A stretch of 64,000 nt of DNA. Origin: Flavobacterium sp. GTDB taxonomy: Bacteria > Bacteroidota > Bacteroidia > Flavobacteriales > Flavobacteriaceae. The notes beneath the pieces were generated by a model. The model searched no databases. It was not told where the DNA came from and worked only from the letters and a program-made list of their open reading frames with translations. Positions within the stretch are counted from its first letter, which is position 1; each line of letters opens with the position of its first letter. Below, piece after piece: positions 670 to 13,521 of the stretch. The stretch covers positions 62,001-126,000 of the forward strand of contig NZ_JAIXYH010000040.1 in NCBI RefSeq assembly GCF_027490375.1, in the 5' to 3' direction. Both the position numbers and the translations under genes were made by a program.

Positions 670-915
670 ATGAACGCACACCAATTACAAGACGATAAAT
701 TAAAGATTATCAATTGGATTAGCCAATTGCAAGATTCTAGCCTTGTGGATAAATTAAAAGCAATAATGAGTAGTGCCGAAGATTCTACCTTAACAAACGA
801 GCAAAAAGCTTTGATAGACCAAGCTTTTGAATCAATTCAACAAGAGGGAACAATTTCGCACAATACCGTAATGGAAGAAACAAAAAAACGTTTTCCTCAT
901 TTATACGACCGATAA
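670..915 (+). CDS. putative antitoxin of a ParE/RelE-type toxin-antitoxin pair
   Basis: 81-aa ORF immediately upstream (3 nt gap) of a RelE/ParE-like ORF; typical flavobacterial antitoxin layout (..LKIINWISQLQDSSLVDKLKAI..). Confidence 0.65.
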   Translation: MNAHQLQDDKLKIINWISQLQDSSLVDKLKAIMSSAEDSTLTNEQKALIDQAFESIQQEGTISHNTVMEETKKRFPHLYDR

Positions 916-918
916 ACG

Positions 919-1212
919 ATGAGGTCAATTTTATGGTCTGAACCATCTAAATTCGATTATTGGGATAATATTGATTATTTACAACGTGAATGGACGCTTA
1001 CAGAAGTGTATGCTTTCATAGATAAAACCAACGAAGTTTTAGACTTATTAGCCAAAGAAAACCTAACTTTTCAACCTACCAATTACAAAGACACTTTTCA
1101 AGTGCCTATTATAAAACAGATAACACTTTACTACCACATAAATCAAAATAAAGATATCGAACTCTTGCGTTTTTGGAACAATTACCAAAACCCTTCTAAA
1201 TTGAGATTATAA
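919..1212 (+). CDS. RelE/ParE superfamily toxin
   Basis: 97 aa; SKFDYWDNIDYLQREWTLTEVYAFIDKTNEVLDLL and C-terminal ELLRFWNNYQNPSKL match the general pattern of ParE/RelE toxins in Bacteroidota. Confidence 0.75.
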   Translation: MRSILWSEPSKFDYWDNIDYLQREWTLTEVYAFIDKTNEVLDLLAKENLTFQPTNYKDTFQVPIIKQITLYYHINQNKDIELLRFWNNYQNPSKLRL

Positions 1213-1336: not shown

Positions 1337-2053
1337 TTAAATCGCCTGAAACCCCATTTTATTCAAGATAAAATTATACAGAGGTATCCTGGAGTTTTTG
1401 GGGTTCTTTAGCTTTTCTTCCATCATTGTTCTATTGCAAATTTCAACAAGCTCCGCGATTCTCGGATTGTTATTGAAATACCCAAACAATAGACTTCTAA
1501 TACATTGATTATCAAAATCAGCCCAATTAATATTATGTTTTTTTACAAAACCATTGGATAATATTTCGTCATTAATGGTTTTATCCGCTTTTTCAATTGT
1601 GCCATACTTTTCCTCAATATCTAAAAGACACTTTTCATAATATTCCCTCTGTAAATAAGCCGATACAAGATCGGGGGTTTCTTCTACTTGTTGTCTAGTG
1701 AAGATACTGTAAATTCCATCAGGATAGCTATTTTCGCCGTAAAGATTCTGAACATAAAATAGGCCAAAACCAGAAATAACGTTAACTTTTTTATCATCAC
1801 TGTCGTAAAACAAAAAAACGTCTTTTTCAAAACAATCAACAAAAAATGTATTAATCGATGTAAAACTAATATTAAAGTTACAAGAAGTGTTATAAACGTT
1901 GGCTTTTGAAACATAAAAACAACCGAAACTAAATACAATTTCAGCATCAATATTAGTTTGTTTGAACACTATGTTTTTATCTTTTTTTAGAAAACCTACG
2001 CTAACTAGAAAATTAAAAAATGTGTGTTCAATATTGTTAACGAAACTTTTCAC
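1337..2053 (-). CDS. hypothetical protein
   Basis: 238-aa intact ORF on the same strand as, and 107 nt downstream of, the SLATT-protease gene; no family recognised. Confidence 0.6.
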   Translation of the reverse strand: MKSFVNNIEHTFFNFLVSVGFLKKDKNIVFKQTNIDAEIVFSFGCFYVSKANVYNTSCNFNISFTSINTFFVDCFEKDVFLFYDSDDKKVNVISGFGLFYVQNLYGENSYPDGIYSIFTRQQVEETPDLVSAYLQREYYEKCLLDIEEKYGTIEKADKTINDEILSNGFVKKHNINWADFDNQCIRSLLFGYFNNNPRIAELVEICNRTMMEEKLKNPKNSRIPLYNFILNKMGFQAI

Positions 2054-2160
2054 TTTCTTCTTTTTTTGAGGTTAACTAAATGTTCTTTCCGCTTTCTTAG
2101 GCAGCATTTCCCCCTTTCATTACAAACATCTTTCCATCAAACCATCCCAAACATCCTTCC

Positions 2161-3633
2161 CTAAACCAACGAAATCGCAAACCGATCTACAATACTCGAA
2201 AACGGAATTACAAACGAACAACGTTCGGCATCGCCACCCACAACAATTCCTATAGGCGTGCCACTCGGAGTGAAAACCAGCGAACCCGAATCGCCTTTCT
2301 TTGAAAACGGTTCCGTACTTATGCCGTGAACCAGCAACATGCCATCGAGATCTTTGTAATCGGGCTCGGCAGCAGTGCCGTAGTTCAAGGTAATAGGTTT
2401 GTCGACTTCCGCAAGACGACCGTAAATTTTCTTGTAACCGCGCGTTCGACTGATTATACAAACCTCTTGGTAATTCTCGAAATTTTCGGCATCCAAGTAA
2501 ACCGGTTGCGCACTTATTTTCAAATGGTTAGGAAATAGCGACTCAAATTGGATCTTATCCGAAATCTGTACCAAAGCAACATCCATAGTATCCGATTTCT
2601 CGGCCTCCAATATGGTGCCCACAATCGTAGAGTCGGTTGTGATTATTTTATCGAATCCATCGGCGGTTGAAAACGAATTCCAACTCTGCGCCGGATGTTT
2701 AACGCTGTGGTAGCACGTTATAAAAACAAACGCATCGCCTTTTTTGCAAAAACAGCCCGCACTTCCAAAATCGGCAGTAGGTACATCGGCATTTTTCACG
2801 CCTGCCGACGGGCTGAAAATACCGTGCAGTTCAGCTTCCGACTTTTCCGTTCGAATACGGTACGCGATGCCTTCCAAATCCTCATGAGCAAATTTGAGTT
2901 TTTCTGGAAGATCGTGTAGCGCTGCGTGTAAATACAATGTTATGAGTCGGCGTTGATGGTCGGTTTCGCTGTATGATACTTCGGTTTTACTTTTTACAAA
3001 GGCATTAATCTCTTTGTTGATGAGCTTAATTTTAGACGGTTCGCCCACAAATTCCGTAGAAGCTATTGTTTTTGAAGTAACAACGGTTTCGGTGCGCGGC
3101 CCAAGATCGGCTTCGCTGTCTGAGACGATTTCCTTTTTGTAATTGTTTAGCTGGTTGAGGCGCAAATTGCCGATGTTCGCAATAAAAGTGGCAAAGGCGT
3201 CATCGTGCGACGGATATTTGAGATACTTCCCCGAAAGGGAAAAGAAATGTTGTCCTTCGATAAGCAGGAGTTCGGCGGTATGCTTGTAGCTGATCCACTT
3301 TTCTCGAAATTTATACGACTGCCGTAAAGCATTGCCAATAGCCAAAAGCACACTACAAATAGTTGCTATACCCAAATATTTGTCGTTTTCCTTATCTGGG
3401 CCCGTTGAAAAGTTAATAAGCACCGGAACTAAGGCGCTGAGTATGATTACGATTACATTCGACCAGTCGTTGGCGAGTAAATTCCGGTTGGCCAGTGTTT
3501 CCATTAACCGAACGCTAACAATAAAATCGGTTTGAATTTGTTTGCGCCTAATCTCGCTTATCGGTAAGGTTGCGAGTGCTTCTTCATAGCCGGTAATACG
3601 CTGATTGAGTAATTGGTCGAGATTCCGATTCAT
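2161..3633 (-). CDS. SLATT/DUF4231-like 2TM domain fused to trypsin-like serine protease domain
   Basis: 490 aa. N-terminal NRNLLANDWSNVIVIILSALVPVLINFS / IATICSVLLAIGNA / FREKWISYKHTAELLLIEGQHFFSLSGKY resembles the DUF4231/SLATT pattern. C-terminal TCYHSVK (His), DTMDVALVQI (Asp) and KKGDSGSLVF (Ser) fit a chymotrypsin-fold triad. Confidence 0.7.
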   Translation of the reverse strand: MNRNLDQLLNQRITGYEEALATLPISEIRRKQIQTDFIVSVRLMETLANRNLLANDWSNVIVIILSALVPVLINFSTGPDKENDKYLGIATICSVLLAIGNALRQSYKFREKWISYKHTAELLLIEGQHFFSLSGKYLKYPSHDDAFATFIANIGNLRLNQLNNYKKEIVSDSEADLGPRTETVVTSKTIASTEFVGEPSKIKLINKEINAFVKSKTEVSYSETDHQRRLITLYLHAALHDLPEKLKFAHEDLEGIAYRIRTEKSEAELHGIFSPSAGVKNADVPTADFGSAGCFCKKGDAFVFITCYHSVKHPAQSWNSFSTADGFDKIITTDSTIVGTILEAEKSDTMDVALVQISDKIQFESLFPNHLKISAQPVYLDAENFENYQEVCIISRTRGYKKIYGRLAEVDKPITLNYGTAAEPDYKDLDGMLLVHGISTEPFSKKGDSGSLVFTPSGTPIGIVVGGDAERCSFVIPFSSIVDRFAISLV

Positions 3634-3945: not shown

Positions 3946-5313
3946 CTACCCTACCACGTGCCGCTGCGCATCCAAACTCTCGTCGTGCTGCGATAAATCC
4001 AGTCCAATTTTCTCGGATTGTTCGCTTACACGAAGCGGAATTATAGCGTTTGTAATGCGGTACAAAGCCAACGAACCTAGAAACGTAAACCCCGCAACCA
4101 AGCCCAAAGCCGCCATGTGGTGCGCAAAAACGCCCCAGCCTCCGTGCAACAAACTAGCCGATTCGCCTTGCGCAAATACTGCAGTAAGTATCATGCCCAT
4201 AATGCCGCCTACACCGTGGCACGCAAACACATCTAAAGTGTCGTCTATGCGTTTCATCACCCGCCAATACAAAATCGAGTTCGATACAATTGCCGTGATA
4301 AATCCAAAAAACATACTTTCAGGAATGCTCACAAATCCAGCGGCAGGCGTAATAGCCACCAAACCAACCACGGCACCAATACAAGCCCCTAAAGCCGAGA
4401 CTTTTCTACCAAACAACCGATCGTAAAAAACCCAAGTCATCATCGCTGCAGCCGACGCTGTTATCGTAGTTCCAAACGCCATAACTGCCGTTCCGTTTGC
4501 AGCCAAGGCCGAACCCGCATTAAAGCCAAACCAACCAAACCAAAGCATGCCCGTTCCTAAAATTACAAACGGAATATTTGTTGGTATATGTAAACTGTCT
4601 TTGCGTTTTCCCAAAACCAAAACGCCTGCAAGTGCAGCAAATCCGGCGCTCATGTGTACAACGGTTCCGCCGGCAAAATCTTTTACGCCAAAAAAGCTGC
4701 CCAATAAGCCCGTCGGATACCAAACCATGTGGCATAAAGGCGCGTAAATCAGCAAAGTAAACAAGCAAATAAAGAGCAAATACGAGATAAATCGCACGCG
4801 CTCAGCAAACGAACCGGTGATAATAGCAGGTGTAATCACCGCAAATTTCATCTGAAAGAGCGCAAAAAGCATAAACGGAATCGTCGAAGCCATTTTGCTG
4901 TGCGGCAAGATACTCACGTGATCAAAAAAGGCGTAGGTAAACGGATTTCCAACAACGCTGTAAAATTTCCCCGAAATCTCAAAACCTAAAGGTTCGCCAA
5001 ATGCTAACGAAAAAGCGCAAATCACCCACAGTAAACTCACTACACCTAAGCAAACAAAGCTCTGCAGCATCGTACTAATGATGTTCTTTTTGCCAACCAT
5101 TCCGCCATAAAAGAACGACAAACCGGGCGTCATCAATAAAACCAAACACGATGCGGTAAGTAACCACGCTACATCTGCAAACGACACGGCTTCTTCTGTT
5201 AAAAAGTTGTTGCGAATAGCCGATGGATCCGATTTCCAAAACAATCCTACCAAACTAAACAAACTGATTAGCGAAAACGAAACAATCCATCTTTTTTCAA
5301 TTTTTCTCATCAC
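3946..5313 (-). CDS. amt: ammonium transporter (Amt family)
   Basis: 455 aa; SFFYGGMVGKKNIISTMLQSF, HMSAGFAALAGVLVLGKR, FNAGSALAANG, CHGVGGIMGMILTAVFA. Confidence 0.95.
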   Translation of the reverse strand: MMRKIEKRWIVSFSLISLFSLVGLFWKSDPSAIRNNFLTEEAVSFADVAWLLTASCLVLLMTPGLSFFYGGMVGKKNIISTMLQSFVCLGVVSLLWVICAFSLAFGEPLGFEISGKFYSVVGNPFTYAFFDHVSILPHSKMASTIPFMLFALFQMKFAVITPAIITGSFAERVRFISYLLFICLFTLLIYAPLCHMVWYPTGLLGSFFGVKDFAGGTVVHMSAGFAALAGVLVLGKRKDSLHIPTNIPFVILGTGMLWFGWFGFNAGSALAANGTAVMAFGTTITASAAAMMTWVFYDRLFGRKVSALGACIGAVVGLVAITPAAGFVSIPESMFFGFITAIVSNSILYWRVMKRIDDTLDVFACHGVGGIMGMILTAVFAQGESASLLHGGWGVFAHHMAALGLVAGFTFLGSLALYRITNAIIPLRVSEQSEKIGLDLSQHDESLDAQRHVVG

Positions 5314-9444: not shown

Positions 9445-10596
9445 ATGGTTATTTTTAAAAAACCAATCCTATCAGTTTTATTAGCAATAGCTTGCAGCTT
9501 TACTGCTGTGGCTACTTCTGTTAACGACACTATTAAAACAAGTGAAGCCAATCACAGCGAGGCTCCAGAAGCACATGCTGCAAAAGGCGAACATCATGAA
9601 AGCGGCGATATCAAATCAGAAATCAAAGCCCACATCAATCACCACGTTCTAGATTCGCATGACTTCACATTGTTTTCAGACGATGAAGCTGGGACGCATT
9701 TCGGTTTTCCTTTGCCGGTGATATTGTGGGATAATGGGGTTCATATCTTTTCTTCTGCAAAATTTGATCACGGACATGCTGTCGCTGAATCGAACGGAAA
9801 TTACTACGCGATCGGTCATCACGACGGAAAGATTTATAAAACTGACGCGAAAGGCACTTTGAACGAAGATGCTACAGGGCATATCACGAATGAACGACCT
9901 TTAGATTTTTCAATCACTAAAAGTGTATTGTCGATAATACTCGTAGCGTTGATTATGTTCTTGCTGTTTCGTTCTTTAGCGAAATCTTACGCAAGAAACG
10001 GCGGCGTTGCAGCCGGTGCAGGAAGAATTTTTGAGCCGCTAGTATTATACGTTCGCGATGAGATTGCAATTCCAAATATTGGTCATAAACACCACAGGAA
10101 GTATATGGGCTATTTGTTAACCATATTTTTCTTCATTCTCTTCTTGAATTTATTTGGATTAACTCCTCTGGGAATTAATGTGACGGGTAACATCACTATC
10201 ACTTTTTCCCTAGCAATTTTAACGTTCCTAATTACCAATCTTACAGCTAATAAATACTATTGGGGACATATCTTCTGGATGCCAGGTGTGCCTTATGCAA
10301 TGCGAATTGTCTTAGCGCCAATTGAATTGTTGGGAGTAGTTATTAAACCGTTTTCATTAATGATCCGGCTCTATGCAAACATTTTTGCGGGTCACATCGT
10401 ATTAATGTCGATCATCGGATTAATGTTTATTTTCAAAAGTTGGATCGGAAGTTCGCTCTCGTTGGCTCTAGCTTTTGTATTGTCTATTCTTGAAATTTTG
10501 GTTGCCTTTCTACAAGCATATATCTTCACCATGTTGTCTGCCCTTTATTTCGGAGCAGCAGTGGAAGAACATCATCACGAAGAAGGTCATCACTAA
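9445..10596 (+). CDS. atpB: ATP synthase F0 subunit a
   Basis: 383 aa; C-terminal a-subunit motif PFSLMIRLYANIFAGHIVL; His-rich N- and C-termini. Confidence 0.95.
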   Translation: MVIFKKPILSVLLAIACSFTAVATSVNDTIKTSEANHSEAPEAHAAKGEHHESGDIKSEIKAHINHHVLDSHDFTLFSDDEAGTHFGFPLPVILWDNGVHIFSSAKFDHGHAVAESNGNYYAIGHHDGKIYKTDAKGTLNEDATGHITNERPLDFSITKSVLSIILVALIMFLLFRSLAKSYARNGGVAAGAGRIFEPLVLYVRDEIAIPNIGHKHHRKYMGYLLTIFFFILFLNLFGLTPLGINVTGNITITFSLAILTFLITNLTANKYYWGHIFWMPGVPYAMRIVLAPIELLGVVIKPFSLMIRLYANIFAGHIVLMSIIGLMFIFKSWIGSSLSLALAFVLSILEILVAFLQAYIFTMLSALYFGAAVEEHHHEEGHH

Positions 10597-10628
10597 TAAT
10601 TTGAACGTTTAATTTTAATATACATTTT

Positions 10629-10820
10629 ATGCAAATTCCAACTATTGTAGGAGCAGGTTTGATCGTAATCGGTGCTGGTTTAGGTATCGGTAAAATTGGT
10701 GGGTCAGCTATGGATGCTATCGCTCGTCAGCCTGAAGCTTCAGGTAAAATTCAAACAGCTATGCTTATCGCAGCAGCTCTTATTGAAGGTATTGGTTTCG
10801 CTGCACTTTTCGCGGCTTAA
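10629..10820 (+). CDS. atpE: ATP synthase F0 subunit c
   Basis: 63 aa; GAGLGIGKIGGSAMDAIARQPEA, AALIEGIGFAALF. Confidence 0.95.
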   Translation: MQIPTIVGAGLIVIGAGLGIGKIGGSAMDAIARQPEASGKIQTAMLIAAALIEGIGFAALFAA

Positions 10821-10889
10821 TTAAACAATCTAACCTTTGTTAGAACGGTTGGTTTTAACAAAGGTTTAAATTAGAATTAATCACCCAAC

Positions 10890-11390
10890 ATGGAAAAATT
10901 AATAAATCAGTTTGAATTAGGCTTGTTCTTTTGGCAAGTAATCATTTTTGTAGGATTAATTTTACTTCTCAGAAAATTCGCTTGGAAACCCATTCTCGAT
11001 GCGGTTAATCAGCGTGAAGAAGGTATTAAAAATGCGTTGCAATCTGCAGAGAATGCTCGTAAAGAAATGCAGTTGTTGCAAGCCGATAACGAGCGTATCT
11101 TACAAGAAGCCCGTATCGAGCGCGATGCACTTTTAAAAGAAGCTCGTGAAATGCGTGAAAAGATGATCGCTGATTCAAAACAAGACGCTCAAGCAGAAGG
11201 TGCTCGCATGATCGAACAAGCGAAATCCGCTATTGCTGCTGAGAAAAATGCCGCTATGGCCGAGCTTAAAAATCAAGTTTCAGCTTTGTCTATCGAAATC
11301 GCTGAAAAATTGGTGAAGCAAGAACTTACCGATAAAGCAGCACAAACAAAGCTTATCGAGAAATTACTAACTGAAGTAAAAGCTAACTAA
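10890..11390 (+). CDS. atpF: ATP synthase F0 subunit b
   Basis: 166 aa; N-terminal TM plus coiled coil, LRKFAWKPILDAVNQREEGIKNAL. Confidence 0.95.
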   Translation: MEKLINQFELGLFFWQVIIFVGLILLLRKFAWKPILDAVNQREEGIKNALQSAENARKEMQLLQADNERILQEARIERDALLKEAREMREKMIADSKQDAQAEGARMIEQAKSAIAAEKNAAMAELKNQVSALSIEIAEKLVKQELTDKAAQTKLIEKLLTEVKAN

Positions 11391-11392
11391 TA

Positions 11393-11926
11393 ATGTCTGT
11401 ATCAAGAGCAGGTTTGAGATACGCTAAAGCAATTCTAGATATTGCATTAGATAAAAACGAAGCCGACGCGGTTGCTGTCGATATGCAATCTATTGCAGAT
11501 ACCTTGCACGCAAACGCCGAGCTTTCGAATTTCTTAACCAATCCCGTGCTTCCAGGTGCAAATAAGTTAAGTGCGCTTGAAGCAATCTTTTCGAATACGA
11601 GCGGTACCACGAAGAACGTTTTCAGATTACTCCTCGAAAACAAGCGTTTCGCAATTTTGGGAGATATCGCAACAGCTTATTTACAGCTTAACGATCAAAG
11701 AAATGGTATCGAAACAGCATTGGTAACTACGGCGCAACCTCTAGATGCAGCCTTGGAAACTGCTGTTTTAAATAGTGTGAAAGCACTTACTTCGGCAAAA
11801 GTAACCCTGAAAAATATTGTAGATCCTTCAATCATCGGAGGATTCATCTTACGCATAGGCGACAAGCAGTTCAACGCTTCCGTTGCACAACGCATTCAAA
11901 ATTTAAAAAGAGAACTTAGCAACTAA
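11393..11926 (+). CDS. atpH: ATP synthase F1 subunit delta
   Basis: 177 aa; RYAKAILDIA..., DPSIIGGFILRIGDKQFNASVAQRIQNLKREL. Confidence 0.95.
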   Translation: MSVSRAGLRYAKAILDIALDKNEADAVAVDMQSIADTLHANAELSNFLTNPVLPGANKLSALEAIFSNTSGTTKNVFRLLLENKRFAILGDIATAYLQLNDQRNGIETALVTTAQPLDAALETAVLNSVKALTSAKVTLKNIVDPSIIGGFILRIGDKQFNASVAQRIQNLKRELSN

Positions 11927-11943
11927 TTATTCAATAATAAGTT

Positions 11944-13521
11944 ATGGCAGAAATTAATGCTGCTGAAATATCAGCAATTCTTAGAAAACAAGTTGAAGGC
12001 TTCGAATCAGGTGCTACTTTGGAAGAAGTAGGGTCTGTAATTGAAGTAGGAGACGGTATTGCCCGTGTGTACGGGTTGTCTAATGCGCAATATGGCGAAT
12101 TAGTACAGTTCGAAAACGGTCTCGAGGCCATCGTACTTAACCTAGAAGAAGATAATGTTGGGGTGGTACTTTTGGGTCCTTCAACGGGTATTAAAGAAGG
12201 TTCTACTGTTAAGAGAACTCAAAGAATTGCTTCGCTTCGCGTAGGTGAAGAAATGGTTGGTCGTGTGGTGAATACACTCGGACAGCCAATCGATGGTAAA
12301 GGACCAATCGGTGGACAATTATACGAAATGCCACTTGAGCGTAAAGCGCCAGGTGTAATTTTCCGTCAGCCAGTTACCGAGCCTTTACAAACAGGTATCA
12401 AAGCTGTTGATGCGATGATTCCAGTAGGTCGTGGTCAACGTGAGTTGGTTATTGGCGACCGTCAGACAGGTAAGTCGACTGTTTGTATCGATACCATCTT
12501 GAATCAAAAAGAATTTTACGATGCAGGACAACCTGTATTTTGTATCTACGTAGCTGTAGGTCAGAAAGCTTCAACCGTTGCAGGTATTGCGAAAACCTTG
12601 GAGGAAAAAGGTGCAATGGCTTATACCATCATCGTAGCAGCTAATGCTTCTGATCCAGCTCCAATGCAAGTTTATGCACCATTTGCGGGTGCCGCTATTG
12701 GCGAGTACTTCCGCGATACAGGTCGTCCGGCGTTGATCGTATACGATGATTTGTCGAAACAAGCGGTTGCTTATCGTGAGGTATCTCTTTTGCTAAGACG
12801 TCCACCAGGACGTGAGGCGTACCCTGGAGACGTTTTCTACTTGCACTCACGTTTGTTAGAGCGTGCGGCAAAAGTAATTGCCGACGATTCGATTGCAAAA
12901 AACATGAACGATTTACCAGAATCACTTAAACCAATCGTTAAAGGTGGTGGTTCGTTAACGGCTTTACCAATTATCGAAACACAAGCGGGCGACGTTTCTG
13001 CGTACATCCCAACTAACGTAATTTCGATTACCGACGGGCAGATTTTCTTGGAATCAGATTTATTTAACTCGGGTGTTCGTCCGGCTATTAACGTAGGTAT
13101 TTCGGTATCGCGTGTAGGTGGTAACGCTCAAATTAAATCGATGAAGAAAGTATCGGGTACGTTAAAACTGGATCAAGCGCAGTTCCGTGAATTGGAAGCT
13201 TTCGCGAAATTCGGATCGGATTTGGATGCTGTAACGTTAAACGTAATCGAAAAAGGACGTAGAAACGTTGAAATCTTGAAGCAAGGTTTGAACAGTCCGT
13301 TTACTGTTGAAGATCAGGTTGCAATTATCTATGCAGGTTCTAAAAACTTATTGAGAAATGTTCCTGTGAACAAAGTAAAAGAGTTTGAAAAAGATTATTT
13401 AGACTATTTGAATAACAAGCACCGCGCTACATTAGATGCTTTGAAAGCGGGTAAATTAGACGACAGCATTACCGATGTATTGGAAGCTGCCGCTAAAGAA
13501 ATCGCTGCGAAGTATAACTAA
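11944..13521 (+). CDS. atpA: ATP synthase F1 subunit alpha
   Basis: 525 aa; Walker [32 protein letters not shown]. Confidence 0.98.

Follow-up and report, generated by a model that had tools for sequence, protein, structure and literature searches.

What does a presumed pore-forming immune domain do when it is joined to a protease in one chain? The question is raised by a 490-aa protein encoded on the minus strand (2161..3633) of the 64,000 nucleotides of Flavobacterium sp. DNA analysed here (hereafter, "the window"), in which a SLATT region is followed by a trypsin-like protease. We find that this fusion appears to be a SLATT-anchored form of a Bacteroidota module, itself apparently undescribed, that is composed of a protease and a putatively exported partner. 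It fits this module by its protease domain and not by its downstream partner gene, which the window clade seems to be without.

Domain architecture of the fusion protein

The N-terminal region of the protein (residues 42-165; 3139..3510, minus strand) is matched by the profiles of both SLATT_1 (NCBIfam NF033634, 8e-17, 61.4 bits against a cut-off of 41) and DUF4231 (Pfam PF14015, 3.4e-13, 50.4 bits against a cut-off of 24.7). A preliminary description of this DNA had assigned two transmembrane (TM) helices to the region. TM1 (residues 60-78) is clear by simple hydropathy, but TM2 (about 86-104) was missed by the hydropathy threshold and follows from the match to the 2TM profile.

The C-terminal domain (residues 255-490; 2161..2871, minus strand) is of the NAL1/trypsin-like type. 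The Trypsin_2 profile of Pfam scores it at 25.1, just under the gathering cut-off of 27.6; the orthologue from Flavobacterium G806 (L026) scores 33.3, over that cut-off. When a profile of the protease family was compared with the PDB, the plant protein NARROW LEAF 1 was retrieved at 2.4e-9 with the triad-region motifs aligned, which places it, Trypsin_2 and the fusion in one protease family; the fusion differs in its N-terminal SLATT membrane anchor, and its relatives differ in their bacterial gene pairing. The motifs CYHS, MDVAL and GDSGS, which had already been read as those of a protease, correspond to H309, D351 and S449, and this triad is invariant in all ten aligned family members. The catalytic domain thus looks like an intact trypsin-like (S1/NAL1-type) serine protease with predicted activity, and the claim that a SLATT/DUF4231 region and a trypsin-like protease share a single chain is borne out by profiles on both sides.

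Between the two domains lies a segment (residues 176-254; 2872..3108, minus strand) that is conserved in part among the SLATT-fused orthologues. It had been suggested that this linker of about 100 aa could be an adaptor or a sensor. The segment need not have so special a role, because relatives without SLATT also have a pre-protease segment. An AlphaFold2 model of the fusion, built from only three near-identical sequences, had a pLDDT of 32 and was uninformative.

A rare fusion under purifying selection

Full-length fusions were found in 4 of the 400 Flavobacterium genomes searched, and searches of relatives, phylum and genus placed them solely in the window genome, two sister genomes and G806, all Flavobacterium. 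No full-length relative was present in the viral contigs, phages or plasmids searched. The sister-genome orthologues (F. aurantiibacter TH167 and a MAG) are 94% identical to the window protein, and that of G806 is 52% identical; in the protease tree, the SLATT-fused proteases form one clade (support 100/99). The dN/dS of the fusion gene is 0.06-0.08 and is low in each of three segments, as is expected under purifying selection. The gene is therefore not decaying, and the existence of three orthologues (94, 94 and 52%) together with this dN/dS means that the 490-aa reading frame is not a product of chance. The fusion is real, conserved, rare and unusual.

The downstream ORF belongs to a variable region

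The preliminary description had placed a 238-aa ORF on the same strand, 107 nt downstream of the fusion gene, and had offered it as a possible partner. Both ORFs are present on the minus strand with that gap, but the proposed partnership is contradicted by several results. The ORF (1337..2053, minus strand, GTG start) has no family match in the Pfam, NCBIfam or PADLOC scans, and searches of 201 genomes of the family, ten close genomes, viral contigs and plasmids gave no homologue. Its GC content is 29.8%, versus 44.6% in the fusion gene. Synteny between the window and L013, the locus of another fusion orthologue, stops at window position 2085, that is, between the two genes; behind the L013 orthologue the ORF is absent, and an Rhs-like C-terminal cassette is found instead. 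The F. aurantiibacter contig (L012) stops 326 nt past the fusion gene and is silent on both this ORF and a downstream partner. We thus reject the ORF as the partner of the fusion and consider it a lineage-specific gene of a variable region, outside the system. Its AlphaFold2 model (pLDDT 36, from one sequence) was uninformative.

The Rhs-like C-terminal cassettes at L011 18037-19694, on the window's own contig, and at L013 8694-9674 have a common core end, MLIPNRHDETGNYRYGF, and differing tips. They were named from their sequence pattern, and the L011 counterpart is without a Pfam match. Their presence marks the stretch downstream of the fusion gene as a variable hotspot. Since one of them (L011 18708-19694) lies about 1.6 kb beyond the 238-aa ORF, the latter may itself be hotspot cargo, such as an orphan immunity gene. 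One L011 cassette overlaps a downstream lipoprotein-like gene, possibly that of an immunity protein. Elsewhere in the window, two small adjoining genes of 81 and 97 aa (670-1212, plus strand) could be a toxin-antitoxin pair; the 97-aa product has a weak match to ParE toxins (0.051, Pfam).

Chromosomal position and defence neighbours

An ammonium-transporter-like gene, named amtB from its sequence (3946..5313, minus strand), is beside or near the fusion gene in all three clade genomes and marks a stable chromosomal position. In F. aurantiibacter, two unrelated genes (765 and 352 aa; L012 4115-7394) separate the two, and the G806 fusion does not adjoin amtB. A link between fusion and transporter was rejected, the shared position being confined to the window clade.

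At about 3.6-8.6 kb from the fusion of G806, PADLOC places SspBC and AbiE genes. In the window's contig, a type IV restriction enzyme is encoded about 6 kb from the fusion; it is a helicase-type, methyl-directed enzyme (L011 12530-16056, C48:54530-58056; PADLOC mREase_IV, 6e-232), and a gene that appears by eye to be Nudix-like adjoins it. The context of the G806 and window copies is thus suggestive of defence, and such a function for the fusion is plausible. PADLOC returned no strong match for the fusion itself, only weak matches to the SLATT region (0.002-0.009), and no nucleotide-signal synthase, SLOG sensor or reverse transcriptase was recognised among the fusion-adjacent genes read in the window, L011, L012 and L013. 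Most of the homologous protease/partner pairs lie outside obvious defence islands.

A recurrent pairing of protease and partner

Outside the window clade, each of the 13 protease relatives is followed on its own strand by a gene that starts no more than 19 nt away or overlaps. These genes, one of which follows the full-length fusion orthologue of G806, encode proteins of 455-888 aa that fall into three homology groups: the A4 type, the A5 type and a third type. The recurrent downstream partner that emerged from the neighbourhood survey is thus a different, putatively exported protein, and not the 238-aa ORF. The N-termini of the proteases are swapped among relatives: about three TM helices are found in six (L027, L029, L031, L032, L096 and L104), other TM regions in three (L033, L083 and L103), and none in L028, L030 and L084.

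Because nine of the pairs (L026-L033 and L096) had been found via the protease, the test was reversed and the partner profiles were searched alone. With the A4 profile, all four matches at E<=1e-10 in 280 Flavobacterium genomes lay directly behind a trypsin-like protease, and two of these pairs (L103 and L104) were new. With the A5 profile, all six partners above 300 bits in 247 genomes of the class lay directly behind a protease. Two of these six proteases are trypsins and four are subtilisins (S8), none with an evident signal peptide. The subtilisin-like proteases are those of L081, L082, L085 and L087, and in L085 and L087 separate TM-anchor-like genes precede them.

The partners appear by eye to carry a signal peptide at the N-terminus and a barrel-like region at the C-terminus, and they matched no Pfam barrel family; for these reasons, we call them only putatively exported. 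Profile comparison did not show a common origin of the A4 and A5 types. Peptidoglycan hydrolases recur close to some of the loci (L027, L030, L033, L088 and L093). In the short stretches read around the wider soluble and lipoprotein trypsins (L037-L059), no such partner was recognised, and we therefore do not file these proteins in the module. The partner is likewise absent downstream of the fusion in the window and L013; a search around the fusion in the window clade showed no remnant of one, and the window genome yielded no A4-type partner.

A proposed role for the fusion and its alternatives

We propose, at roughly even odds, that the fusion is an anchored, cytoplasm-facing protease of an envelope-linked conflict or stress module with an exported partner, and that the window lineage seems to lack an adjoining partner. 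The SLATT 2TM module would anchor the protein in the inner membrane and probably oligomerise it, with the C-terminal NAL1/trypsin-type domain as the effector on the cytoplasmic side. By the positive-inside rule, applied by eye, the SLATT and three-TM versions both place the protease in the cytoplasm, and the soluble members and the subtilisins without signal peptides agree with this placement. The family would then comprise Bacteroidota proteases without signal peptides (S1, and S8 subtilisins at some loci), normally in a tight gene pair with an exported partner that may report on the outer envelope, across the membrane from the protease. The state of the partner would control the tethered protease; once released, the protease could cut cytoplasmic or membrane-proximal targets and so arrest or kill the cell. 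In the window lineage, the protease is under selection with no partner gene beside it, so that there it would act alone or with a partner encoded elsewhere.

A model after the preliminary description would instead make the SLATT region a pore that the fused protease gates, with the 238-aa ORF as regulator or partner, and the whole an abortive-infection effector. The domain fusion is real, as this model holds; pore formation is predicted for SLATT proteins, and DRT10 defence depends on one of them (PMC12632851). Yet the ORF is absent behind the L013 orthologue, homologue-less and deviant in composition, and relatives replace SLATT by other TM modules or by none, so that the family can do without a pore. 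We consider this model improbable. The preliminary reading does hold in placing SLATT and a trypsin-like protease in one chain and in regarding the fusion as a candidate conflict-type protein.

Two other explanations would remove the module from immunity. The tight coupling of the protease gene to that of an exported partner, and the peptidoglycan hydrolases nearby, might mean that the protease processes or controls the partner or its export, in the service of surface biogenesis. We regard this as unlikely, given that the predicted cytoplasmic protease and its partner would occupy different compartments, that the window clade keeps the protease without an adjoining partner, and that the pairs are sporadic (four strong A4 matches in 280 genomes of the genus). 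Alternatively, the low dN/dS and the proximity to amtB in all three clade genomes could befit a housekeeping protease for membrane quality control or regulation, perhaps tied to the ammonium transporter. The restriction of the full-length fusion to 4 of 400 genomes, the lack of an adjacent amtB in G806 and the intervening genes in F. aurantiibacter make this a poor explanation in our judgement.

Relation to known systems

The fusion resembles SLATT_1/DUF4231 proteins in its 2TM domain, which exceeds the curated cut-offs. The other SLATT hits read are short and apparently stand-alone (L002 and L003, with short open frames in L004, L005, L008 and L009), unlike the fusion, beside which no nucleotide-signal gene was seen. 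In DRT10, a system of reverse transcriptase, ncRNA and SLATT, the SLATT gene is required for phage defence (PMC12632851); no reverse transcriptase was recognised here, and the SLATT of the fusion is joined to a protease. Trypsin-like peptidases are among the listed effectors of conflict systems (PMC7159879), and the ternary, EACC1 and NucA-type systems use trypsin or other peptidases, some of them TM-fused, as effectors or activators (PMC7159879, PMC8195603). No STAND, vWA, MoxR, EAD or caspase component was recognised beside the fusion, whose relatives have a putatively exported partner instead.

A search of the literature turned up no description of the recurrent Bacteroidota gene pair to which the fusion leads. 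Should this pair prove to be a conflict system, a putative protein of the outer envelope would be linked through it to a protease effector in the cytoplasm. It is a tentative extension of our proposal that these pairs make up an undescribed modular trans-envelope system, in which an exported protein of outer-membrane type signals to a protease on interchangeable anchors, killing or arresting the cell upon envelope attack, with the window protein as its partner-less SLATT variant.

Distant relatives of the A5-type partner

The weaker A5 matches are mostly without a protease neighbour (L086, L089-L095 and L080). That at L080 is from the window genome itself (contig C38) and is a 641-aa exported-type protein of the A5 family (10403-12328). 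The distant A5-type proteins of L089 (5100-9419) and L091 (5466-9781) are each followed by a similar-looking protein of about 490 aa, and could represent another conserved pair.
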